Position numbers and translations under genes: made by a program. 64,000 bases of DNA, taken from positions 1 to 64,000 of the forward strand of contig JAITUU010000009.1 of the NCBI GenBank assembly GCA_031286165.1, given 5' to 3'. This document shows, piece after piece, positions 7,737-61,483 of the stretch. How positions within the stretch are numbered: position 1 is the stretch's first letter; each line of letters starts with the position of its first letter. The stretch comes from Bacteroidales bacterium. Lineage in GTDB: Bacteria; Bacteroidota; Bacteroidia; Bacteroidales; UBA1715. Below the pieces are notes generated by a model, which worked only from the letters and a program-made list of their open reading frames with translations, was not told the DNA's origin and made no database searches.

Positions 7737-9785
7737 ATGAATACCTTCAATAATAAAGAACTGAGCTGGCTGCTTTTCAACGAGCGCGTGCTGCAAGAAG
7801 CGCAGGATACCGATGTGCCGCTGCTGCAACGCCTGCGTTTTTTAGGAATTTTTTCCAACAATCAAGATGAATTTTTTAAAGTGCGGGTGGCTACTCTTTT
7901 ACGCCTCAGCGACATTGCCGCCGCCAAACACGCGCAACTCACCGGCGGCTACACTCCTGCCGAACTGCTGCTCAAAGTGTATGAAAAAACCGAAACACTG
8001 CAAAATAGTTTTTCTCAAACCTATGCCGAAATTCGTGCCGAAATGGAAGAAAATGGCATTTTTTTGATAGACCACACCCAACTCAACGAAGAACAACTGC
8101 AATTTTGCACCAATTATTTCACTTCTATTATTAGTATTCGTTTGGTGCCGCTCATGCTGCGCAAACACGCCGAAATTCCTTTTCTGCCCGATGGAAAAAT
8201 TTATTTGGCAGTGAAAATGAACATGAAAACACAATCGCGCTATGCTATTATAGAAGTGCCGGTGAGCGATGCAAGTCCGCGATTTGTGGTGCTCCCACCC
8301 TCTGCTGCCGGACGCAGCGAAGTTATGTTTGTTGATGATATTATCAAACTTTTTTTAGACGATATTTTCTTCATGTTCAATTACGAAAGCATAGAAGCGC
8401 ACACTTTCAAATTCACGCGCGATGCTGTGTTTACCTTAGACGATGATATAAGCAAAAGTTTTGTGGAAAAAATGAGCGAAGGACTTTCGCAACGTCTTCA
8501 CGGGCGGGTAATTCGCCTTACCTACGACCGCGAAATGCCCGAAGATGTACTCAAACTGCTGGCGCACAAATTCAAACTCAAAAAATCGCAACAGTTGGTT
8601 GCCGGCAGCCGCTACCACCTCATGCGCGATTTGATGAAATTCCCCAAAGTAAATCCCGCGCTGGAAAACGAAAAATATGCTCCCCTTCCGCTCCGCGCCA
8701 TCGACCCCTTTGAAAGTATTATTTCGGTGATTAAACAACACGATATTCTGCTCTATTATCCCTATCACAGTTTCAATCATTTTATCAACTTTTTGCGCGA
8801 AGCCGCCATAGACCCCAGCGTGGAATCTATTTACATTACCTTATACCGCACCGCATCGCACTCCAAAGTAATAAACGCCCTGCAAAATGCCGCCAAAAAC
8901 GGCAAAAAAGTAACTGTGTTGGTGGAAATTAAAGCCCGATTTGACGAAGAACAAAATATAGTAAATGCAAACACTTTGCAGGAGTCCGGCGTAAAAGTGC
9001 TCTATTCGCCCGAAAGCATAAAAGTGCACAGCAAAGTGGCACTCGTGGAACGCAAGGAAGGCAGCGGCAAACGCAAGGGCTACGTGTATGTGGGCACCGG
9101 CAATTTCAACGAAAACACCGCCACCGTGTATTGCGATTTCGGGCTATTTACCGCCCACCAAAGCGTGGTAGCCGATGCGCGAAAACTCTTCGATTATTTG
9201 GAAAATACGCACAAACGCTACGAATACGATACACTGCTCGTAGCACCCTACGATTTGCGTTCCGCTATCAATAAAATACTCAATACCGAAATTGAAAACG
9301 CAAAAAAAGGTAAAAAAGCCTATTTCTACGGAAAATTCAATTCGCTCACCGATGAAAAAATGATAGAAAAACTCTATAAAGCGAGCAATGCAGGAGTGAA
9401 AATTCGTTTAATTATTCGCGGAGCCTGTTGCCTACAACCGCAACTAAAAAAATTGAGCGAAAACATTGAAATTCACAGTATTGTAGATACCTACTTGGAA
9501 CACGCACGGGTAATACTTCACGCCAACGGCGGCAAAGAGCGAAGTTATATTCTGAGTGCCGACCTTATGCCGCGCAATTTAGACCGCCGCGTGGAAGTGG
9601 GAACTCCTATTTTAGATAAAAAAATACACGACATTGTGCGCACAATTTTCAACTTACAGTGGCAGGACAATGAAAAAGCACGCCTACTTACCAACGATAA
9701 GGAAAATACCTACTACGCCGGCAATAACTACACAAAAATCCGCAGCCAAATTGCTCTGTATGAATACTTAACCGACAAACAATAA
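7737..9785 (+). CDS. ppk: Polyphosphate kinase 1
   Basis: PPK1 reversibly transfers the gamma phosphate of ATP to polyphosphate. The 682-residue protein shows all four PPK1 domains: the N-terminal domain begins NKELSWLLFNERVLQEA, and the two C-terminal phospholipase-D-like domains carry the histidines in IKVHSKVALVE and YLEHARVILHANGG, the first being the phosphohistidine site. The start at 7737 is chosen because homologues begin at NKELSWL; an upstream in-frame ATG at 7641 would add a non-conserved tail. Its stop overlaps the queH start by one base (TAATG), so the two are likely coupled. Confidence 0.95.
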   Translation: MNTFNNKELSWLLFNERVLQEAQDTDVPLLQRLRFLGIFSNNQDEFFKVRVATLLRLSDIAAAKHAQLTGGYTPAELLLKVYEKTETLQNSFSQTYAEIRAEMEENGIFLIDHTQLNEEQLQFCTNYFTSIISIRLVPLMLRKHAEIPFLPDGKIYLAVKMNMKTQSRYAIIEVPVSDASPRFVVLPPSAAGRSEVMFVDDIIKLFLDDIFFMFNYESIEAHTFKFTRDAVFTLDDDISKSFVEKMSEGLSQRLHGRVIRLTYDREMPEDVLKLLAHKFKLKKSQQLVAGSRYHLMRDLMKFPKVNPALENEKYAPLPLRAIDPFESIISVIKQHDILLYYPYHSFNHFINFLREAAIDPSVESIYITLYRTASHSKVINALQNAAKNGKKVTVLVEIKARFDEEQNIVNANTLQESGVKVLYSPESIKVHSKVALVERKEGSGKRKGYVYVGTGNFNENTATVYCDFGLFTAHQSVVADARKLFDYLENTHKRYEYDTLLVAPYDLRSAINKILNTEIENAKKGKKAYFYGKFNSLTDEKMIEKLYKASNAGVKIRLIIRGACCLQPQLKKLSENIEIHSIVDTYLEHARVILHANGGKERSYILSADLMPRNLDRRVEVGTPILDKKIHDIVRTIFNLQWQDNEKARLLTNDKENTYYAGNNYTKIRSQIALYEYLTDKQ

Positions 9786-10297
9786 TGAAACTTCTCTTAC
9801 ATAGTTGCTGTGCGCCCTGCGCATCGGCATCGGTGGAACAACTGCTTGATGGCGGTAATACGGTGGAATTATTCTACTATATGCCCTCAATTTTTTCACT
9901 CGAAGAATACGAAAAACGATTAGATTCACTACAAATTCTATCAAAACACTTTCAAATTCCCTTACACGCAGGAAGATACGAACACGAAGCGTGGCTTTCG
10001 TTTATACAAGGGTTGGAAACGGAAAAAGAGGGCGGCGCACGGTGCTTTCGCTGTTATGAATTTTTACTCCGCGCCTCGCAACAAAAAGCACAGGAATTGG
10101 GTTTCAATCAATTTTCTACCACACTTACCATTAGCCCCTACAAAAATGCTGAAAAAATTCGCACAATCGGGTTGCAGTGCAACGGATTTGCATTTTTCGA
10201 TTTCAAACAAAACAACGGCTACCGCCGCAGTATAGAACTAAGCAAAGCACTCGGTTTGTATCGTCAAAAATTCTGCGCCTGCGAGTTTTCAAAATAA
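9785..10297 (+). CDS. queH: Epoxyqueuosine reductase QueH
   Basis: QueH reduces epoxyqueuosine to queuosine in tRNA, the last step of the pathway, in organisms that lack QueG. The 170-residue protein has the family's cysteine layout: LHSCCAPCA at the N-terminus, RCFRCYEFLL near residue 80, and FCACEFS at the C-terminus. These ligate an iron-sulfur cluster and a second metal. TLTISPYKN is also typical. It overlaps ppk by one base and is followed by a terminator. QueE and FolE of the same pathway lie elsewhere in the window. Confidence 0.93.
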   Translation: MKLLLHSCCAPCASASVEQLLDGGNTVELFYYMPSIFSLEEYEKRLDSLQILSKHFQIPLHAGRYEHEAWLSFIQGLETEKEGGARCFRCYEFLLRASQQKAQELGFNQFSTTLTISPYKNAEKIRTIGLQCNGFAFFDFKQNNGYRRSIELSKALGLYRQKFCACEFSK

Positions 10298-10347: not shown

Positions 10348-12762
10348 TTATCCCATAGTAACTTCCACATTCACTTCACCCGAAGTAAATACCGGAACTA
10401 TATTACCTTCAATTTCTTTACTGTTTACCACCACTTTTTTCACTCCTTTCGATACGTGATTTGGGTTTGAAACAGAAATTTTATAGGTTGCTCCGCGAAA
10501 TTTACGAATTACTTTGAAACCGTCCCACGAAGTTGGAATACAAGGGTCGATAATCAAACCATCTAAGGCAGGACGAACACCGGCAATCCACTGAGTACCC
10601 GCTACATACGTCCACGAAGATGTTCCCGAAAGCCATGCGTTACGCCCCATGCCAAATTGTTTGTGCTCATCGCCCAACACATTTTGTGGATAGCAATATG
10701 GTTCCGATTCAAATACTTCCAATTTATCGTTTTTCGATGCAGGATTGATTTGATTGTAATATTGGAAGGCTCTGTCGCCGCGTCCGGCAATGGTTTCGGC
10801 TATCATCATCCAAGGATTGGCATGAAGGAAAATACCGCCGTTTTCTTTTGCTCCCGGAGGATAGGTTGATACGCCACCAAGTTCAGGGTCGAAACCGTTG
10901 TAGCCGGGCCAACTCAATTTAATACCATACGATGTATTCAATTTTTCGTAAATAGTATCGAGCGCGGTAATCATGCGTTCGCCTTCGGCAAAACCTGAAA
11001 TTACTGGCCACGATTGACCGTTGGTAAACACTTTTCCGTATTGATTTTCATCACTTCCGAGTGCTTCGCCGTTGGCTTTAAACCAGCGTTTCCACCATTT
11101 TCCGTCCCACGCTGAATCATTTACGGCTTTTTTCATTTCAGCATAGTAGCCTTCAAGCGTTTTTTTGTATTCGGTTTCGCCTATGGCATCGCATATTGCA
11201 ATCATTTCTATCAATGCTTTTCCAAAAAGATTGGCATTGAAAAGCGATTCCGCGCCTTTTGCCAAGTTCACGGTGTCGTTCCAGTCGGCAAATCCCAAGT
11301 GTGGCAATCCGTGCTGTCCTCTATCGTTCCAAGTAAAGTTGATTGAACGTTTCAAGTGTTCCCACACCGTTCCTTTTTCGCGTTTTTCGAGAGGTAATTT
11401 TTTATCGTAGAAGGTAATTTCTTTGTTCAAGAAATCGAAATTTCCTGTTTCTTTCAAATATTGCGCTACGGTTTGCACTATCCACAAGTGGTCATCGCCG
11501 TAGTAATCGGGCAATTCCGGTTCTTCACGCGAGTCGCCTTCGTTTGCTTCCATTGTTGAAGGAAAATATTGGTGCATGGCAGAACCGTTTGCCAACTGTA
11601 CCGAAAGTAAATTTTCGGCAAGCACACGAGCCTCTTCGGGCATGTGCGACATGGCGCCAAGCAAATCTTGCGATGAATCGCGGAAACCAATACCGCGCGA
11701 ACTTCCAAATCCAAGTTGATACATAGACAAATAGCGCGACCAGTTTTTAGTAGTGTGGCACTGACGCGGATTGTGCACATTTATCATAGAATTGAACGAT
11801 GGATCGGGACTTTCTATGGTCATAGTAGTTAAATACTCTTCCCAGAATGCTGCCAAGTCGGCAAATGCTTTGTCCACATTGGCAAGATTGCGATATTTTG
11901 CAATTTCTTCTTGTGCATCGGCAATAGACGCTTTTTGTGTAAGTTGGGTGCAAGTACGCTGCGTTTCGCCGTTTTTCATTACACCGAATTGTATCATAAG
12001 TGCTGCCACATTGTCGCCGCGCACACATTCAGAATTTGAAAGTTCCGGTTTTTCCAACGAAAGCGGATTGGCAAACGAACCATATTCATAGTCGCCCAAG
12101 AACACACGGCGGTCGCCTTCAAATGAAGATACCGGACGGTCGCACGTTACTAAATTCACCGCATAGTTTTTCTTCATAAATGCGTATTGCTCCAAAATCA
12201 CATGTCCGCCTTTTTCCCAATGACCGTTCAATGTCATAGTTTGTGGTACCCAATCGGCATTGGTAAGTTGTTTCAAAGCATCAAAATGCGTAAATTCATA
12301 CACCGGAATTACGTCTATTTCCATATCTTTTCCCGAAATATTGGTAATTTTTATGTCTTGCAACAATGTTTGCGCTCCGGTAGGAATAAAAATCGTAATT
12401 TCTGCTTTCACGCCGTAGGCTTCTACCACCCATTTCGAGTACGAAAGACCGATGTGGCACTCAAATTTGTCTAATTTTTTGAGCGTAGGGGTGAAAAACG
12501 GAGAAAATACGGTATAACTTCCGTCAGCATTTTTTATACGAATATACACCGTAGATGCTTTAAAATCCGATTGCGGCATTTGTGCTATGTATTTTGTAAT
12601 ACGATTGAGCGCGGGGTCGCCTTTGCATATAAGCGCACCACCCGTATTATCTACAATACCTCCAAATTCCAATGTTCCCACGTAATTAGCCCACTTAATC
12701 GGTGTTTTGGGGGTTGTAATTACATACTCTTTTTTTGCGTCGTCAAAATAACCGAATTGCAT
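10348..12762 (-). CDS. GH94 disaccharide phosphorylase (cellobiose/chitobiose phosphorylase family)
   Basis: The 804-residue protein has the GH94 layout: an N-terminal beta-sandwich (1-300), a helical linker and an (alpha/alpha)6 barrel. SSRGIGFRDSSQDLLGA, GLPHLGFADWND (DWND at 493-496, holding the catalytic Asp region) and the C-terminal GTSSWTYVAGTQWI are diagnostic. Such enzymes cut a beta-linked disaccharide with phosphate to give a sugar 1-phosphate. The length fits cellobiose or chitobiose phosphorylases, but the substrate cannot be fixed from sequence reading alone. No signal peptide is seen, so it is cytoplasmic. It could supply sugar 1-phosphate from oligosaccharides released by secreted enzymes such as the GH5 protein in this window. 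Confidence 0.9.
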   Translation of the reverse strand: MQFGYFDDAKKEYVITTPKTPIKWANYVGTLEFGGIVDNTGGALICKGDPALNRITKYIAQMPQSDFKASTVYIRIKNADGSYTVFSPFFTPTLKKLDKFECHIGLSYSKWVVEAYGVKAEITIFIPTGAQTLLQDIKITNISGKDMEIDVIPVYEFTHFDALKQLTNADWVPQTMTLNGHWEKGGHVILEQYAFMKKNYAVNLVTCDRPVSSFEGDRRVFLGDYEYGSFANPLSLEKPELSNSECVRGDNVAALMIQFGVMKNGETQRTCTQLTQKASIADAQEEIAKYRNLANVDKAFADLAAFWEEYLTTMTIESPDPSFNSMINVHNPRQCHTTKNWSRYLSMYQLGFGSSRGIGFRDSSQDLLGAMSHMPEEARVLAENLLSVQLANGSAMHQYFPSTMEANEGDSREEPELPDYYGDDHLWIVQTVAQYLKETGNFDFLNKEITFYDKKLPLEKREKGTVWEHLKRSINFTWNDRGQHGLPHLGFADWNDTVNLAKGAESLFNANLFGKALIEMIAICDAIGETEYKKTLEGYYAEMKKAVNDSAWDGKWWKRWFKANGEALGSDENQYGKVFTNGQSWPVISGFAEGERMITALDTIYEKLNTSYGIKLSWPGYNGFDPELGGVSTYPPGAKENGGIFLHANPWMMIAETIAGRGDRAFQYYNQINPASKNDKLEVFESEPYCYPQNVLGDEHKQFGMGRNAWLSGTSSWTYVAGTQWIAGVRPALDGLIIDPCIPTSWDGFKVIRKFRGATYKISVSNPNHVSKGVKKVVVNSKEIEGNIVPVFTSGEVNVEVTMG

Positions 12763-14074: not shown

Positions 14075-14087
14075 CTATTTGATTTTC

Positions 14088-14119
14088 AAGTCGTTACGTT
14101 TATCGTGGCGACTTTTTTT
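14088..14119 (+). terminator. Terminator of tRNA-Leu
   Basis: An 11-bp stem (two G-U pairs) closes around TTTAT and is followed by seven T. Confidence 0.8.
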
Positions 14120-14147
14120 ATTTGTAGTAAGTATTAGTTTCTAAGTA

Positions 14148-14243
14148 TTAGTAATTAAAGATATAAGATAGAAGCGCATTTACGCACAAAAAAGCGATCG
14201 CGCACAATGCTAATACGATTGATTTTATGTGTTTTTCTTTCAT
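14148..14243 (-). CDS. Tiny hydrophobic ORF (31 residues) divergent from cassette gene C, copy 1
   Basis: A minus-strand frame reads MKEKHIKSIVLALC followed by a hydrophobic stretch and ends SYIFNY. It would be one transmembrane helix. Its ATG lies just outside the 73-bp block shared with the other cassette copy, and in that copy another tiny frame (61391-61483) starts at the corresponding place with an unrelated sequence. Position supports it being real, but 31 residues is too short for sequence proof. Confidence 0.35.
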   Translation of the reverse strand: MKEKHIKSIVLALCAIAFLCVNALLSYIFNY

Positions 14244-14250
14244 TTTTGTG

Positions 14251-14323
14251 TTTTTTTACGTTTTTTCTTGACTTTCTATGTTTTTTGTTGTATATTGCTG
14301 AAAAATAAAATTTACTGCCATGA
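14251..14323. repeat. 73-bp perfect inverted repeat, copy 1 (leader/promoter of cassette gene C)
   Basis: Identical base for base to the reverse complement of 61319-61391. It contains TTG (14268-14270), 20 bp, then TATATTGC (14291-14298), a near match to the Bacteroidetes promoter, and ends at the ATG of gene C. On the other strand it holds a conserved 21-codon frame (starts MAVNFIFQQ), which may be coincidental. Confidence 0.92.
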
Positions 14324-14484
14324 TTACCACACTATTAACCATATTATTTGTTGTTTTGGGTTGGATTTTATATATTTTGTTCGATTTATGGATTACCACT
14401 CCTACGAAAAATTACAAACCCGACCTTTCAGGTGGTATTCCCCCGAAACCAATGAACATGCCATATATTGGAATTTTTTACTAA
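14320..14484 (+). CDS. Cassette gene C, copy 1: 54-residue membrane peptide
   Basis: The frame starts at the ATG that ends the shared 73-bp block. It encodes a hydrophobic helix (residues 3-24), then WITTPTKNYKP and a polar tail. The copy at 61161-61322 encodes a peptide of the same plan with WATTPSKGYKP at the same place. Conservation of start, length, topology, the W-x-TTP-x-K-x-YKP motif and the stop position between two otherwise diverged copies argues that it is translated. The stop lies 3 bp from the stop of the convergent gene B. The function is unknown. A promoter-like TTG-N20-TATATTGC lies upstream. Confidence 0.68.
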   Translation: MITTLLTILFVVLGWILYILFDLWITTPTKNYKPDLSGGIPPKPMNMPYIGIFY

Positions 14485-14487
14485 ATC

Positions 14488-14622
14488 TCAGCAATACCGA
14501 CTTCTATCATTTCGATTTTTATAATCGGTTTCGCTCTTTTGGTAGCCATTAACGTAGCCAAAAGCATATATGCTTAAAACAGCAATGCAGCATACAATTA
14601 CTATTCCTATTATTGCTATCAT
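14488..14622 (-). CDS. Cassette gene B, copy 1: 44-residue membrane peptide ending RSRYC
   Basis: The ATG overlaps the stop of frame A by ATGA. The product has an N-terminal hydrophobic helix (residues 2-21), a GYVNGY motif, a charged segment and the C-terminus DRSRYC. The other copy (61023-61157) also has 44 residues, GYIKGY at the same place and the same DRSRYC ending. Its 3' end and that of gene C lie in a 27-bp block identical in both copies. Two copies with the same length and motifs but different middles indicate a maintained coding sequence. The function is unknown. Confidence 0.68.
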   Translation of the reverse strand: MIAIIGIVIVCCIAVLSIYAFGYVNGYQKSETDYKNRNDRSRYC

Positions 14623-14822
14623 TGCTCCCCCTCCCCAAATTCTTCGTTTAGTTGTTTTTCCACCCAAAGCAAATACGCCTCTTTGTCGGCTGTTATGCTA
14701 TCGGTGTCGTAGGTTGTTGTTGCAATCATTGTTTCGGGGTCAAAGTCAAATTTTCGGTGTTTTTTCGCAATTTTGATACCCTCCTCGTGGATTTTTGGTG
14801 CACAAAAAAAAGCCGCAAACAA
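14619..14822 (-). pseudogene. Cassette frame A, copy 1: 5'-truncated C-terminal fragment
   Basis: The frame ends with DSITADKEAYLLWVEKQLNE and stops 4 bp inside gene B. Upstream it runs back through ...HEEGIKIAKKHRKFDFD into the hppA terminator hairpin, so its beginning is missing; an internal ATG at 14729 would give 36 residues. The other copy (60886-61026) has the same C-terminus but no ATG at all. It therefore looks like the end of a longer protein of which full copies may exist elsewhere. The 84 bp at 14633-14716 match 60929-61012 (inverted) with one mismatch. Confidence 0.6.
14633..14716. repeat. 84-bp inverted repeat, copy 1 (3' end of frame A)
   Basis: One mismatch separates this block from the reverse complement of 60929-61012. 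A further 27-bp perfect match (14482-14508 with 61137-61163) covers the convergent ends of genes B and C. Confidence 0.9.
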
Positions 14823-14842
14823 AAAAATTGCTTGCGGCTTTT
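14808..14842 (-). terminator. Terminator of hppA
   Basis: An 11-bp stem AAAAGCCGCAA / TTGCGGCTTTT lies 20 bp after the hppA stop, with A/T runs on both sides. It also marks the left limit of frame A of the cassette. Confidence 0.85.
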
Positions 14843-14861
14843 ATAATACAGAGGTAAACTA

Positions 14862-17087
14862 TCATATCACACTAAACGCCACCGTAAGTCCTGCCATTAC
14901 GATAGAAACCATGCTCATGAGTTTGATAAGAATGTTGAGCGAAGGTCCGGAGGTGTCTTTGAACGGGTCGCCTACGGTGTCGCCCACTACGGCGGCTTTG
15001 TGCACTTCGCTGCCTTTGCCGCCGAAATTGCCTTCTTCTACGTATTTTTTTGCATTGTCCCACGCGCCGCCGGCGTTAGCCATAAACACAGCGAGTACAA
15101 ATCCCGTAGCGCAACCACCTACCAATAAACCCATTACGCCTGCCACGCCGAGCAATATGCCGATTGCCACCGGAATAAAAATAGCCAAGAGCGATGGCAA
15201 CAACATTTCGCGTTGTGCACCTTTGGTGGAAATTGCCACGCAGCGAGCATAGTCGGGCGTAGCCTCACCGGTCAAAATGCCTTTGATTTCGAGGAATTGG
15301 CGGCGAACTTCTTCCACCATACTTTGCGCGGCGCGACCTACGGCATTCATCGAAAGTCCGCAGAAAAGGAAGGCGGTCATAGCCCCCACAAACGCCCCCA
15401 CCAGCACTTTGGGGTTCATTAGGTTAATTTGGTAATATTGAATAAAATCTATCAAGGTGGAGTTTTGAATTTGTTCCAAACTGAGTTGCGCCACACCCAC
15501 TTGCACGAGTGCCTGTCCGTTTTCGGCAAGGCGTTCAAGTCCCACTTTAATTTCTTCGATATACGAAGCAAGCAGCGCAAGTGCGGTGAGTGCCGCCGAA
15601 CCAATGGCAAAGCCTTTTCCGGTAGCGGCGGTGGTGTTTCCAAGCGCGTCTAAGGCATCGGTGCGTTTGCGCACTTCGGGGTCAAGTCCGCTCATTTCGG
15701 CGTTTCCACCGGCATTATCGGCAATCGGTCCGTAAGCATCGGTTGCCAGCGTAATACCCAGCGTAGAGAGCATACCTACGGCGGCAATACCGATTCCGTA
15801 TAGTCCCAAACTGAGATTTTGCGCGGTCATTAAGTTATGCACATCAAAATTGATAGCACAAAGATATGCCATAAGAATAGCCAATCCGATGGTTATCACC
15901 GGAATAGCGGTAGAAATCATACCTGTTCCGATACCCGAAATTATCACCGTAGCCGGACCTGTTTTTCCGCTTTCGGAGATTTTCTTCGTTGGGCTATACG
16001 AGTGCGAAGTGTAATATTCGGTGGATTGCCCAATAATTACGCCGGCAACCAAGCCGCTGATAACCGAGAAGGAAAGTCCCACCCAATTTTCGATACCGAG
16101 TGCGTACAAAATACCGAAGGTAGCCAGCGCAATGAGAGCCGAACTCACGTTCACCCCTTTGCCCAGCGCACCGAGCAGTTGTTTCATATTAGCACCTTCT
16201 TTGGTGCGCACCAAAAATATTCCGATAATCGAAAGCACCACGCCCACAGCGGCAATCAGCATAGGGGCGAACACGGCTTTTTCCTGCATACCGTCTATGG
16301 AACTTTTGGCGAAAGCGGCGGCACCCAGCGCGGCAGTGGCGAGAATAGAACCTGCGTAACTTTCATAAAGGTCGGCACCCATACCGGCTACATCGCCTAC
16401 ATTATCGCCCACGTTGTCGGCAATCGTTGCCGGGTTGCGCGGGTCATCTTCGGGAATTCCTGCTTCCACTTTGCCCACAAGGTCGGCACCCACGTCAGCG
16501 GCTTTGGTGTAAATACCGCCGCCCACGCGGGCAAACAGAGCCTGCGTAGAGGCACCCATTCCGAAGGTAAGCATGGTGGTGGTTATTATCACGAGTTTAT
16601 TGTGCGCACCGGCATCTACAAAATGGTCGAGCACCCAATACCACACGGCAATATCGAGCAGGGCAAGCCCCACTACCGTTAAACCCATTACCGCACCGGA
16701 ACGAAAGGCTACCGTCAAACCGCTGTTGAGCGAACGTTGCGCAGCGTTGGCAGTACGCGCCGAAGCGTAGGTGGCAGTTTTCATACCGATAAAACCCGCC
16801 AAACCGGAAAAAAATCCGCCCGTGATAAAGGCAAAGGGCACCCATGGATTTTGCACTTCAAAACCGTAGGCAAGCACGGCAAAAAACGCCGCCAGCACCA
16901 CAAACACAATCAATACGATTTTGTACTGCTGTTTGAGATACGCCATAGCACCTTCGCGCACATACTGCGCAATGGTTTTCATGGTATCGGTGCCTTCACT
17001 CTCCTGCATCATTTTGCGGAAAAAATAGTAGGCAAAACCGAGCGCAAGCACGGCTGCAATGGGGACAAATGTAAAAAACACATTCAT
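14862..17087 (-). CDS. hppA: Membrane-bound pyrophosphatase (ion-pumping, K+-dependent type)
   Basis: HppA hydrolyses pyrophosphate and pumps H+ and/or Na+ across the inner membrane. The 741-residue protein has about 16 transmembrane helices and the family motifs DVGADLVGKVEAGIPEDDPR and TIADNVGDNVGDVAGMGADL, which bind Mg-PPi. The stretch GNTTAATGKG has Ala where the K+-independent group has Lys, so it belongs to the K+-dependent group, which includes the Na+-pumping enzymes. Which ion is pumped cannot be settled here. It is followed by a strong terminator. With PPi-PFK at 56.3-57.9 kb it points to PPi as an energy currency. Confidence 0.95.
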   Translation of the reverse strand: MNVFFTFVPIAAVLALGFAYYFFRKMMQESEGTDTMKTIAQYVREGAMAYLKQQYKIVLIVFVVLAAFFAVLAYGFEVQNPWVPFAFITGGFFSGLAGFIGMKTATYASARTANAAQRSLNSGLTVAFRSGAVMGLTVVGLALLDIAVWYWVLDHFVDAGAHNKLVIITTTMLTFGMGASTQALFARVGGGIYTKAADVGADLVGKVEAGIPEDDPRNPATIADNVGDNVGDVAGMGADLYESYAGSILATAALGAAAFAKSSIDGMQEKAVFAPMLIAAVGVVLSIIGIFLVRTKEGANMKQLLGALGKGVNVSSALIALATFGILYALGIENWVGLSFSVISGLVAGVIIGQSTEYYTSHSYSPTKKISESGKTGPATVIISGIGTGMISTAIPVITIGLAILMAYLCAINFDVHNLMTAQNLSLGLYGIGIAAVGMLSTLGITLATDAYGPIADNAGGNAEMSGLDPEVRKRTDALDALGNTTAATGKGFAIGSAALTALALLASYIEEIKVGLERLAENGQALVQVGVAQLSLEQIQNSTLIDFIQYYQINLMNPKVLVGAFVGAMTAFLFCGLSMNAVGRAAQSMVEEVRRQFLEIKGILTGEATPDYARCVAISTKGAQREMLLPSLLAIFIPVAIGILLGVAGVMGLLVGGCATGFVLAVFMANAGGAWDNAKKYVEEGNFGGKGSEVHKAAVVGDTVGDPFKDTSGPSLNILIKLMSMVSIVMAGLTVAFSVI

Positions 17088-43570: not shown

Positions 43571-45286
43571 ATGAAACATATAATCCCCGCTCTTCTGCTG
43601 CTGCTGCCCTTTTCGCTTACGGCGCAAAATCCTGCATCATACAATGTTGCACTGCCGGTAGATATTCCCGTGTCGCTATCGGGTAATTTTGGCGAATTGC
43701 GGTCGAATCACTTTCATTCGGGCATAGATTTTCGCACGCAGCAAGTAACGGGCAAAAACATTCTCGCCATAGAAAGCGGCTACGTGTCGCGAGCGGCGGT
43801 GCGTCCTTCGGGCTATGGAAATGTGTTGTATGTAACGCACCCCAACGGATTGACGAGTGTATATGCACATCTTTCGGCATTTTCGCCGCGTATAGACAGC
43901 GTAATTCGAGCGCGGCAGCGTGCGCAAAAAACCAATAATTTCGATTTTGCCGATTTTTCTCCTGCGGAAATGCCGGTGGAGCGCGGTGAAATGATTGCCC
44001 TTTCGGGAAATTCCGGCAGTTCGGGCGGTCCGCACTTGCATTTTGAAATTCGCAATACACACAACGAACACACGCTTGACCCCATGCAATTTTATCCGCA
44101 AATTATAGACAAAGCACGTCCGCGAATTTCGGCTGTGGGTGTGTATGCCATAAATTCCAACAGTTTTGTGGAAAAACAGCGAGGTAAACGATTTTACACC
44201 GCCGTAGCGAAAGGCACTACCGGCGATTACACGCTGGCAAAACCCATAGAAGTATGGGGCGATATTGGTTTTTCCATTCAAGGTAACGACCTCATGACCG
44301 GCAGCAACAGTGTGTTCGGATTCTACCGCGTAAAACTTTCGTGCAATAAACAAGTGCTCTACGAACGAGAGATAAACGAAATAGACCTCGCCACCACCAA
44401 CGACCTCAATTCCCTGATAGACTACGAAGAACGCCAAAAATCGAAGCGTTTTTTTGAAAAAGCATTTGTGGACAAAAACAACGACTTGCAAATTTACACT
44501 CACCTGCACAATTCGGGGATTTACTCCGCCGCACAACCCGACACGGCGCAGTGCGAATTTATAGTATCCGACATTCGCAACAATGCCACTTCTCTGCAAT
44601 TTACACTCATTCAAAAACCATTGAACGACAGCGAATTACAAGTATTACCAAAACTCACCGAACAAGGCGAATGGTTTGATTGCAAAGAAGAATTTCGCTA
44701 TTCGCAAGACGATTTTACCTTCACTGCCGATGATAAAACTTTTTTCACCGATTTCACCTTTTCGGCAAAAGAAGTTACCACTCCCACCAAACGAAGCTAC
44801 TATTCCAAACGCTACGCTGTGCAAACCAATCAGCCGATTTTCAAGAAAAATGCAACGATACAAGTACAAAGCACTCTGCCCGATTCGCTGCGCGGCAAAG
44901 CACTATTTGAGCGAGGCGGAGCTGCCGTGTTTGCCAAAATCAATAGTGAAGGAATTGCTACGGCGCAAGTAAAAGTGGGCGGCACCTACGGCATTGTGAT
45001 AGATACCACCGCACCCAAAATTGCCATCACGCTTGCACCCGGCGAAAATATGCAACAACGCTCGCAACTTTTCTTCAAAATCAGCGATGATTTTTCGGGA
45101 ATTGGTAGTTACAATGCCTACATAGACAATGTGTGGACAATCATAGAATACGATGCAAAAACCGCAACGGTGTTTCTACCTTTTAAATACGCCGCCTTTG
45201 CGCCCAACACCATGCACGAACTACGTATAGAAGTAAGCGATGTGGTGGGCAATAAAGCAGTAAAAACAATATCGTTTTTTAAATAA
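43571..45286 (+). CDS. M23-family peptidase (LytM-like) with signal peptide
   Basis: The ATG at 43571 opens a signal peptide (MKHIIPALLLLLPFSLTAQ), which excludes the upstream in-frame ATG at 43490, whose codons come from spacer repeats. The M23 domain follows at about residues 25-180: the zinc ligands are in NHFHSGIDF (HxxxD), and the catalytic His and third ligand are in GPHLHFEI. The remaining 390 residues contain beta-sandwich-like segments. M23 enzymes cut peptidoglycan or act as scaffolds. All metal ligands are present, so it may be active. Confidence 0.9.
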   Translation: MKHIIPALLLLLPFSLTAQNPASYNVALPVDIPVSLSGNFGELRSNHFHSGIDFRTQQVTGKNILAIESGYVSRAAVRPSGYGNVLYVTHPNGLTSVYAHLSAFSPRIDSVIRARQRAQKTNNFDFADFSPAEMPVERGEMIALSGNSGSSGGPHLHFEIRNTHNEHTLDPMQFYPQIIDKARPRISAVGVYAINSNSFVEKQRGKRFYTAVAKGTTGDYTLAKPIEVWGDIGFSIQGNDLMTGSNSVFGFYRVKLSCNKQVLYEREINEIDLATTNDLNSLIDYEERQKSKRFFEKAFVDKNNDLQIYTHLHNSGIYSAAQPDTAQCEFIVSDIRNNATSLQFTLIQKPLNDSELQVLPKLTEQGEWFDCKEEFRYSQDDFTFTADDKTFFTDFTFSAKEVTTPTKRSYYSKRYAVQTNQPIFKKNATIQVQSTLPDSLRGKALFERGGAAVFAKINSEGIATAQVKVGGTYGIVIDTTAPKIAITLAPGENMQQRSQLFFKISDDFSGIGSYNAYIDNVWTIIEYDAKTATVFLPFKYAAFAPNTMHELRIEVSDVVGNKAVKTISFFK

Positions 45287-45296
45287 CCTCCCCCTC

Positions 45297-48200
45297 TCAC
45301 TCCACAGGAATAATCACATTATTGTGCAGCGCAAACCACACATAGGCAGAAACGGTTTTATACCCAATTTCACGCAATAATTTCACGTAATTTCGCACTT
45401 GTTTTTCGTATTTCGGAAGTGCTTTTTCGCTTTCAGCAAATTTATAATCCACCAACACTACTTCATTATTCGGTGCTATCATTACCCTATCGGGGCGGTA
45501 GGAAACAAGTTCAGAATGTTCGTTTTTACAAATAATTTCCGCTTCATTGAGTACTCGATACGAACCATCGAACCACGACTGTACTTCTTTATGCAAAAGC
45601 ATTGCACAAATCGTTTCATTAATTTCCGCTTCATGGTCTGCGCGAATATCGCCGCGTAAGAGTGCTTTTTGAATTGCCGCTTCGGTATCGCGTACCTGCA
45701 CTATATCCGCCAAAATTCCGTGCAGGGCTATTCCCAACATTTGCGGCGAAAGTATGGTATCGTTTTTTTGTTCTGTGCCTACTACAAAACCATCCACAAA
45801 CTGCTCTGCTTTTTTCGTTTGCGAATAAGTTATTTCCGCCGATTGTGCACTAAATTCGGGAATTATGGGCGTTTCTTCGGGAGAAAATATACTTGCTCGT
45901 TTTTCTGTTTTTTCATGCTTTTGCTCGGTTTCGTTCACCGCATAGCGCACACATCGTTCGCCGCGTTGCGTTTCGGGTTGTGTTTCTAAAAAACGATAGA
46001 GTAAATCCGCCACGTTTTTCTTTCTGTCTTGCTTGCCTTTGGTATCGGAATTTGTGCCGCAGATAGCAAGCGATTGTTCGGGGCGAGTGAAAGCCACATA
46101 GAGTGCGTTGAGATTATCTATGGTTTCCAAGCGTTCTTCTTGGTGTTTCACCGATTCAAAATACGTGTTTTTCAAACTGCTCTTAATAGCCGGCAGCACT
46201 TGTAATTCACTCAAATCAACCGGAATATCGCTTTCGTTTTGCAATTTTTCTTGCGTTGTTTCACAATCGCTTATCCACAAATAATTGTTGTGAATGTGGT
46301 CGTTAGTTTTCACAAATTTCCAATTACAAAAAGGAATAATCACCGCCGGAAATTCCAAGCCTTTGGAAGAGTGCACCGTGAGTAATTGCACACTATCGCC
46401 CTGCGCTCCTGCCGAAAGCGGAATGGATTTTTCCTGCAAACTTTCGTTCCAATACTGCAAAAATGCCGCAATATGGGCACTGTAACGAGTAGAATACTCG
46501 TGAACCGCATCGAGGAAGGAAAATAAAAACGCATATTCCTCGCGGTAATCGAACAAATTGAAACGATGAATGCTGTGCAACACCAAATCGAAGAGCGATT
46601 TATTGAGCAGCGAAGTTCTGTCGGTTTGTAATTCGCGCAGTGCCGCCGCATTTTTTTTACCGCAAGCAATTTGCACAAACTCCAATGCCGTAGTGTTCTG
46701 TGGATTGAATACGTATGAAAGAATATTGATAACAACGCGCACGCTCAGTGCCGAACGGTAGTAAAACGCCTCTGCCGACACAAAGGAAAGCGGTTTTTCG
46801 GAAGAAATCATAAGTGGTTTCTCCAAAAAATGGTCAATAATTGTACGTATTTCCTTTTTCTCTTTACACAAAATCGTAATATCCTTTGCCTCGTAGCCGC
46901 GAGCGTATAAATCCGTTATTTCTTTTCTCACAAATTCCAACGAATCGCTTGGGTCTATAACTTCTTCGTCAGTGTCATCGCTCTTTTCTGTGCGTTTTTC
47001 GCCTTTTCCTTCAAAAATTTGACATACAATACGTCCACTCCCTTTTTTGTAGGCAATTTGTGTATCTTTTGGGGTATAAATTGCATTGATTTTTTCCAAC
47101 AAGTCTTTGTCGGCAAATATTCCGTCTTGTAAACCGCCGGTAAACAATTCATTATTGAAAGTTACGATATATTCTCCCGTTCTAAAATTTTTGTCGAGTA
47201 TTACGGCTTCTGCTTCGTAGTTTTTTCCGGAATTTAAGGAAAATCCTTTATTTCGCAAATCGGAGAAAATCTTCCAATCGCCATTATTGAAACGGTAAAT
47301 AGACTGCTTGGCATCGCCCACAATGATAGACGTTTTGTTATTATCGAGCGATTCGGCAAGCAGGAGTTTGAAATTATTCCAATTCAACTGCGAAGTATCT
47401 TGAAACTCGTCTATCATAATGTAGTGATACCGCTCCCCCATTTTTTCAAATACAAAAGAAATATCAAGTCCTTCATCGGACATTATAATTGCGCTGAGTA
47501 ATTGCGCCGTTTCGGAGAGCAGAAATACATTGTTCTGCGCCATAATGTGGCGTTTGCATGTGTGTATGCCGGCAAGTAAGCCCAAAGAATTAATGTCTTT
47601 TAAGAGCAATTTTGCAGTGTTATAGGCTTTGAAGTGCGTTTCTAAATACCGGTACGTTGTATCAAAAAATGCTCGTACTGCTTGTTCGGAATGTAGTTTT
47701 TTCACCAAATCACTTCCTTCGCACACTGCTTTTTTAATCGTTTTTGCTGTTTCCGGGTCAGGATTGAGAAGTTCAAACCATTTTTCAGGTGTTTTTATTT
47801 TTGTAAATAGTTGTAACACAGCACCATTTTTTCCTCCCACAAAATTATCTTTTTCCAAATCAAATTGTTTTTCAAATTCATTGGAAAAATTCGCAAGACT
47901 ATCTCTTATTTCCTTACAAAACTCGGCACACCCTTCTTTGATAGGTTTCAATATGGCAGGGTCGGAAAGTTTTTCCAAATCCACGCCTTTGACTTTAAAG
48001 GTTTCTTTTGTCAAGGCTTTGGCAAACGCCAATAAATCGCGTTCCACGTTCCATTTTTTGCCATCGCGTATGCGTTCTTGAATAAACTCGCGATACCATT
48101 CTTTCAATTCTGCATTTTCGGTCATGTGGTCTATGCTGTGGCGAATTGCTTCTTCTATAATAGTGCTATCGTCTAAAATTACGTTAAACGATGCCCCCAA

Positions 48201-60885: not shown

Positions 60886-61026
60886 CGGTATATTTTCAAA
60901 ATACGTATTAGAGCGGATACAAAATTACCAACCTACGCCACCGATAGCATAACAGCCGACAAAGAGGCGTATTTGCTTTGGGTGGAAAAACAACTAAACG
61001 AAGAATTTGGGGGGTCGGAAGAATGA
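60886..61026 (+). pseudogene. Cassette frame A, copy 2: 5'-truncated C-terminal fragment
   Basis: The open frame begins after a stop at 60883-60885 and has no ATG; it ends DSITADKEAYLLWVEKQLNE and then FGGSEE, stopping inside gene B (ATGA overlap). The 84 bp from 60929 to 61012 match the copy at 14633-14716 with one mismatch. Upstream of 60929 the two copies are unrelated. It appears to be a residual 3' end of a longer gene. Confidence 0.6.
60929..61012. repeat. 84-bp inverted repeat, copy 2 (3' end of frame A)
   Basis: Reverse complement of 14633-14716 with one mismatch. A second block, 27 bp at 61137-61163, is identical to 14482-14508 (inverted). Confidence 0.9.
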
Positions 61027-61157
61027 TAGCAACAATAGCAGAAATATTTATAGTGATAGCAACACTCGTAGGCATGTTTTTAGCAGGTTACATTAAAGGC
61101 TATCACGATAGCACACGCAATGAAAACGAATACAGAGATAGAAGTCGGTATTGCTGA
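61023..61157 (+). CDS. Cassette gene B, copy 2: 44-residue membrane peptide ending RSRYC
   Basis: Starts in the A stop (ATGA) and encodes a hydrophobic helix (residues 2-22), then GYIKGY and a charged segment, ending DRSRYC. The copy at 14488-14622 has the same length, GYVNGY at the same position and the same end, although the helix and the charged part differ. The conserved frame over diverged DNA is the main evidence that it is coding. The function is unknown. Confidence 0.68.
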   Translation: MIATIAEIFIVIATLVGMFLAGYIKGYHDSTRNENEYRDRSRYC

Positions 61158-61160
61158 GAT

Positions 61161-61322
61161 TTAATAGTATTCTAATACGGGAACACCATTAATAAAATAT
61201 TTTACTCTCGCTCCTTTTCTACTCTCTGGCTTATACCCTTTACTTGGAGTAGTTGCCCATATAGTAATAAAAACAAGAAATAAAATAAATAGAATGAATA
61301 ATATGAGTGCTACATATTTCAT
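61161..61322 (-). CDS. Cassette gene C, copy 2: 53-residue membrane peptide
   Basis: Convergent with gene B, with stop codons 3 bp apart. The product has a hydrophobic helix (residues 3-23), WATTPSKGYKP and a tail ending LEYY. Copy 1 (14320-14484) has the same plan with WITTPTKNYKP. It is preceded by the 73-bp shared block, which contains a promoter-like TTG-N20-TATATTGC on the minus strand. The function is unknown. Confidence 0.68.
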   Translation of the reverse strand: MKYVALILFILFILFLVFITIWATTPSKGYKPESRKGARVKYFINGVPVLEYY

Positions 61323-61391
61323 GGCAGTAAATTTTATTTTTCAGCAATATACAACAAAAAACATAGAAAGTCAAGAAAAAACGTAAAAAAA
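61319..61391. repeat. 73-bp perfect inverted repeat, copy 2 (leader/promoter of cassette gene C)
   Basis: Identical to the reverse complement of 14251-14323. One end holds the ATG of gene C, the other ends at the ATG of the tiny frame at 61391, so it may be a bidirectional leader. Confidence 0.92.
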
Positions 61392-61483
61392 TGGAAAAAT
61401 TAAATCAAAAACCCTTTTTAAGCGAACAAGACGTATTAAATAAAATAGTAGAACTTGAACAACAAATACGAGAAGCGTCCTAA
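61391..61483 (+). CDS. Tiny ORF (30 residues) divergent from cassette gene C, copy 2
   Basis: The frame reads MEKLNQKPFLSEQDVLNKIV and continues as a short amphipathic helix, ending REAS. It starts directly at the edge of the 73-bp block, in the same place as the unrelated 31-residue frame at 14148-14243 in the other copy. Coding status is uncertain. Confidence 0.35.
   Translation: MEKLNQKPFLSEQDVLNKIVELEQQIREAS

Follow-up and report, generated by a model that had tools for sequence, protein, structure and literature searches.

Among described systems, those closest to the locus considered here are the exclusion proteins of prophages, the small proteins of cryptic prophages, phage morons and the ordinary mosaicism of phage genomes. 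SieA of P22 is 162-164 aa long with three predicted helices, and exclusion proteins of its type are prophage-borne membrane proteins that occur as very divergent sequence types (PMC10883804). DicB, which acts through MinC in the cell, exemplifies the tiny gene that is kept outside a working prophage (PMC6832061). In ordinary phage mosaicism, adjacent genes have different nearest relatives and the breaks lie near gene edges.

The window (the whole stretch of DNA that was analysed, 64,000 nucleotides of a Bacteroidales genome) contains two copies of a module of about 0.5 kb that consists of two tiny genes, C and B, and a fragment of another, A; a third copy lies elsewhere in the genome, within a prophage-like element termed X. 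C recalls the SieA type in being a prophage-borne, predicted membrane protein of very divergent sequence types, but it has about 54 aa, one helix and no sequence similarity to SieA, and exclusion by C would be an analogy. The module shares with DicB the retention of a tiny gene outside a working prophage, although B and C are predicted membrane peptides without a known partner. The layout is that of a moron insofar as C is opposite to its neighbours in X, has its own promoter-like site and lies in an accessory stretch (PAPS reductase, methyltransferase); unlike a moron, C is not followed by a terminator-like site in any of the three copies, the adjoining A and B are not independent units, and two of the three copies are outside any recognisable phage. 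The pattern of adjacent genes with different nearest relatives is likewise that of phage mosaicism, but here it is found among copies in a single bacterial genome, and two of these have no phage genes around them. Most likely, the module consists of two tiny, mosaic, orphan membrane genes of phage origin, leftover or retained viral accessory genes and not a new kind of system.

Three copies of the module in one genome

Comparison of positions 14076-14870 with the window by blastn matched copies 1 and 2 in opposite orientation over 511 columns with 71% identity (E = 3e-60, far beyond chance), which bears out the description in the earlier note of one architecture present twice in opposite orientation. 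Copy 1 occupies the intergenic region between tRNA-Leu and hppA, and copy 2 that between cysK and a GH5 gene; in both, the order is C, convergent B and a fragment of A (Table 1). The genes had been read correctly: B has 44 residues in both window copies, and C, with 53-54 residues, converges on B; 3 bp separate the two stops (in copy 3, 2 bp), and the overlap of A with B is ATGA. By blastn and alignment, the near-identical blocks (C promoter, common 3' ends, C-terminus of A) also agree with the description. Of frame A, however, the window copies have just 56 and 32 codons without an ATG, truncated at points that differ between them. B and C each contain one strongly hydrophobic stretch of 19 residues (mean hydropathy 2.4-3.2; predicted membrane peptides), and the promoter-like hexamers before C and their 17-bp spacing, a consensus match only, are identical in all three copies.

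Table 1. Features of the module in the window
Feature	Position	Strand	Description
Module copy 1, homology extent	14243..14789	+	blastn and three-way alignment
Promoter-like TTGACT-17-TATATT upstream of C, copy 1	14268..14296	+	consensus match only
Gene C copy 1, allele alpha	14320..14484	+	54 aa, one hydrophobic helix, conserved tail W-x-TTP-x-K-x-YKP
Block of 27 bp that includes the 3' ends of both genes, C and B	14482..14508	.	common to all copies
Gene B copy 1, allele alpha	14488..14622	-	44 aa, one hydrophobic helix, conserved tail GY-x-x-GY ... RSRYC
A remnant, copy 1	14619..14789	-	last 56 codons, no ATG; compared with the 72-aa A of copy 3
Module copy 2, homology extent	60928..61392	-	blastn and alignment
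A remnant, copy 2	60928..61026	+	last 32 codons, no start
Gene B copy 2, allele beta	61023..61157	+	44 aa
Gene C copy 2, allele beta	61161..61322	-	53 aa
Promoter-like TTGACT-17-TATATT upstream of C, copy 2	61346..61374	-	consensus match only

The repeat had been placed at 14148-14822; it is real, but the homology is narrower, with approximate bounds at 14243 and 14789 (copy 1) and at 61392 and 60928 (copy 2). Outside it are the hppA terminator (14808-14842) and a frame of 31 aa on the minus strand (14148-14243) that is not part of the repeat. This frame and one of 30 aa beside copy 2 (61391-61483, plus strand) lie just outside the homologous block, point away from C and are unrelated to each other.

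The whole assembly (2.5 Mb in 56 contigs) was searched with the module DNA, and a third copy was found on contig C46 (match at 9608-10096; about 9543-10147 once widened by inspection). Searches with profiles of B and of C agree with the DNA search on a total of three. Copy 3 alone has the full-length frame A that the earlier note had suggested looking for (72 aa, MTQEQKETVLKLLKMGIEEG...). Of the further copies also sought, it is the one found, within the same genome only, and the outcome of no further copies in any genome was only just avoided.

With a G+C content of 33-35% in the module and 33% in intergenic DNA of the window, composition is uninformative on origin. An Rfam scan found four tRNAs and nothing else. 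Integration at tRNA-Leu was looked for, but nowhere else in the genome does the flank between this gene and the module have a convincing match. In an empty-site comparison with two genomes of the same genus, the hppA match was absent in one and distant in the other, these relatives being too far for synteny. A mobile cassette of transposon or integron type is not supported: the 5' edges of the copies are alike and the 3' edges differ, the flanks show just short low-complexity repeats (7-10 bp), and the module contains no transposase or integrase gene.

No convincing homologue of the module appears outside its own genome in the databases searched. Relatives of A were absent from 149 relatives, 395 genomes of the class, viral contigs, phages and GTDB contigs; a short local match within a 524-aa protein of a viral contig (L015) was judged spurious, as was the sole outside match at class level, which has an internal stop and no surrounding gene. 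B was searched for in its own genome, in viral contigs, where there were no relatives, and in phages, where the best matches had E 0.1 or worse; those in Mammaliicoccus phages (E 0.1) were taken to reflect the helix alone. C has no convincing relatives in 393 genomes of the order, viral contigs or phages, and the module DNA has none in phages or plasmids. Profile searches of the PDB with C and two proteins of X gave nothing significant.

Mosaic alleles and coding constraint

The three copies do not share one pattern of relatedness along their length. In a three-way alignment, all 9 informative sites of the promoter block pair copies 1 and 2, 58 of the 73 in the C region pair copies 1 and 3, and 52 of the 58 in the B region pair copies 2 and 3, while the A block is nearly identical in all three. 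The 145 informative sites fall into 31 runs, as against 88.7 expected by shuffling (p<=5e-5), and none of 20,000 shuffles gave fewer than 69 runs. Since the segments differ in their nearest relative, and a single tree cannot give this pattern, the reading of the copies as a recombination mosaic, with exchange at the conserved blocks, is supported; the recombination between copies that the earlier note expected thus gained support once the third copy was added. The strong divergence of the middle regions also stands, but it resolves into two alleles each of B (36% identical) and C (35% identical), combined as C-alpha/B-alpha in copy 1, C-beta/B-beta in copy 2 and C-alpha/B-beta in copy 3. B and C are therefore not inherited as matched pairs. 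C starts with ATT in copy 3 (L009 around 9628) and with ATG in copies 1 and 2; the sole mixed combination of alleles and the sole ATT start thus coincide in this copy, a single case.

The comparison of substitutions between copies proposed in the earlier note was made with the close pairs (C of copies 1 and 3, A of copies 1 and 3, B of copies 2 and 3). In the claimed frames pN/pS is 0.25 (14 synonymous changes at 86 sites, 13 nonsynonymous at 316), and in the other five frames it ranges from 0.57 to 2.39. Pooling of the full codon alignments gives a Fisher p of 0.0014. Codons containing stops number 5 to 13 in the other five frames; the claimed frames have 1, which is the terminal stop of A. 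Low pN/pS and few stops, confined to the claimed frames, indicate that A, B and C have been under protein-level selection. The A remnant of copy 1, which could hardly be translated as A, is equally constrained (6 synonymous changes at 32.7 sites, 9 nonsynonymous at 135.3); because of this, the constraint most likely acted while the genes were still in the element, before insertion, and is no proof that the window copies are in use.

The prophage-like element around copy 3

Copy 3 sits in element X on C46, in surroundings that include primase, methyltransferase and PAPS-reductase genes and no recognisable lysis region. The adjoining PAPS reductase is of phage type (PHROG E 1.5e-31), and some frames of X look, by inspection of the sequence, like a DNA cytosine methyltransferase. 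The replication gene runs in the direction of A and B, and C is on the opposite strand to the flanking element genes. The BT4734-like/PriCT_2 primase-helicase gene of X has a Mu-like prophage inside it, which separates an N-terminal part (43738-46044, two frames) from a C-terminal part (11017-11820); both outer pieces match PHROG 28855, at positions 55-189 and 563-774. Relatives of the primase exist in phages, and none were found in GTDB contigs.

X also has a block of eight minus-strand proteins (L009 53-6054, on C46), which includes SH3-domain, glycine-rich hydrophobic and virion-like proteins; neither the block proteins nor the virion genes gave an informative Pfam or PHROG match. A 744-aa protein of X has relatives in 14 of the 393 genomes of the order, its own counted, the block is mostly syntenic in three loci of two other genomes (L095, L096 and L097) and partly so in L098 and L099, and one X-family element has a transglycosylase of phage virion/endolysin type. 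These features suggest that X is probably a virus-like element family; possibly it is an undescribed, perhaps tailless, prophage group. No clear A, B or C is present in the other X-family elements examined, and the module may therefore have been a passenger in X and not a part of it. Over the 393 genomes, the C profile has its best non-self match, with E 0.0017 for the single genome concerned, in a 31-aa frame, MSTLNTCLILVILFVVCLLFDNWIDKNLKPN, at L099 5011-5106 (G108:C104), directly after a DnaJ-like gene and within an X-family element; with its single helix, W and KxxKP it may be a distant C, at a score that is not significant alone over 393 genomes.

The Mu-like prophage extends over some 32 kb (G000:C46 about 11837-43806) and encodes a MuA-like protein (L009:13335-15473, PHROG transposase, E 1e-23) and a MuB-like protein (15492-16370, PHROG transposition protein, E 1e-36). 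No clear target duplication was found at its ends, where CCAAACACGAA repeats are inverted at 11839 and 43772/43794. In size and layout it resembles the transposable prophage fF4 of F. columnare (PMC7761591).

Origin and possible roles of the module

Origin of the module in a phage element, with recombination, is probable. It is supported by the full-length A of copy 3, the phage-type PAPS reductase, the split primase-helicase gene and the phage relatives of the primase; by the distribution of X relatives, the virion-type transglycosylase, the mosaic and the coding constraint; and by the shared promoter hexamers and spacing and the location of the top C-profile match inside an X-family element. 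The module would be a piece of the accessory region of X, a prophage-like element family of this bacterial group, in which C, under its own promoter and on the opposite strand, would have a moron-like layout. Through homologous recombination at three shared blocks (promoter, 3' end and A), relatives of X would have swapped alleles of B and C, producing the mosaic, and two modules would then have been stranded in intergenic DNA with A cut off and B and C still open. No other X genes were found at either window site, so that insertion of a whole prophage followed by deletion is only a possible route. Taken as a whole and weighted towards origin, the account in which accessory genes recombined among phages of a population and two modules ended up between host genes has about an even chance of being right. 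As for function, C, perhaps with B, may be made in the lysogen as a single-helix inner-membrane peptide and would hinder the entry of related phages (superinfection exclusion). Layout and analogy suggest this role, for which padloc gave no match, and it is a tentative proposal, on balance unlikely.

The window copies could instead be what deletion has left of past X-type elements; B and C would then be open only on account of their shortness and of the recency of the insertions, and would have no present function at these sites. That A is truncated in both, that the constraint extends to a remnant hardly translatable as A and is hence most likely older than insertion, and that an insertion does no harm in either intergenic gap all agree with this; on the other hand, the cut in A is at a different point in each window copy, while B and C are open and C has retained its ATG and promoter in both. 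Such decay is a substantial possibility, and for the window copies nearly as likely as the favoured account. If the genes are kept for a function, they would be a minimal example of phage-derived membrane peptides held outside a prophage, with alleles reshuffled at fixed blocks; if they are debris, they would show how a gene pair of this sort can pass for a host toxin/immunity system. In both cases, copy 3 points to an integrated element family, X, in this order, with virion genes that match no Pfam or PHROG family.

The earlier note proposed a toxin/immunity or lysis-like pair, and neither is supported. A toxin/immunity or toxin-antitoxin pair, in which one membrane peptide is the toxin and the other its partner, would suit two small hydrophobic peptides that are convergent, occur together in all three copies and vary in their helix regions, and the ATT start of C in the mixed combination would fit a harmful mismatch, again in a single case. 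The uncoupling of B and C alleles, with three combinations in three copies, argues against a strict pair, however; no toxin, antitoxin or defence profile matches, and the C transcript has no excess RNA structure (z 0.19) and hence no sign of a type I system. This role is improbable. Still a little less probable is a host chromosomal reservoir, in which B/C modules at neutral sites would trade parts with incoming X-type phages at the three conserved blocks and so reshuffle exclusion specificity.

A holin- or spanin-like lysis pair of a phage is very improbable: B has matches to Rz-like spanins (E 0.025-0.095) and to a holin model (E 0.13), but these are weak and cover mainly the hydrophobic helix, copy 3 lies in a replication/accessory region with no endolysin adjoining the module, B and C are on opposite strands and hence not one operon, and at 44-54 aa with one helix no coiled coil or lipoprotein partner is seen. 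An artefact of assembly or collapse is scarcely credible even with an assembly in 56 contigs, as the copies differ at roughly 10-30% of positions by pair and segment, do not share flanks or truncation points, and are all well away from contig ends.
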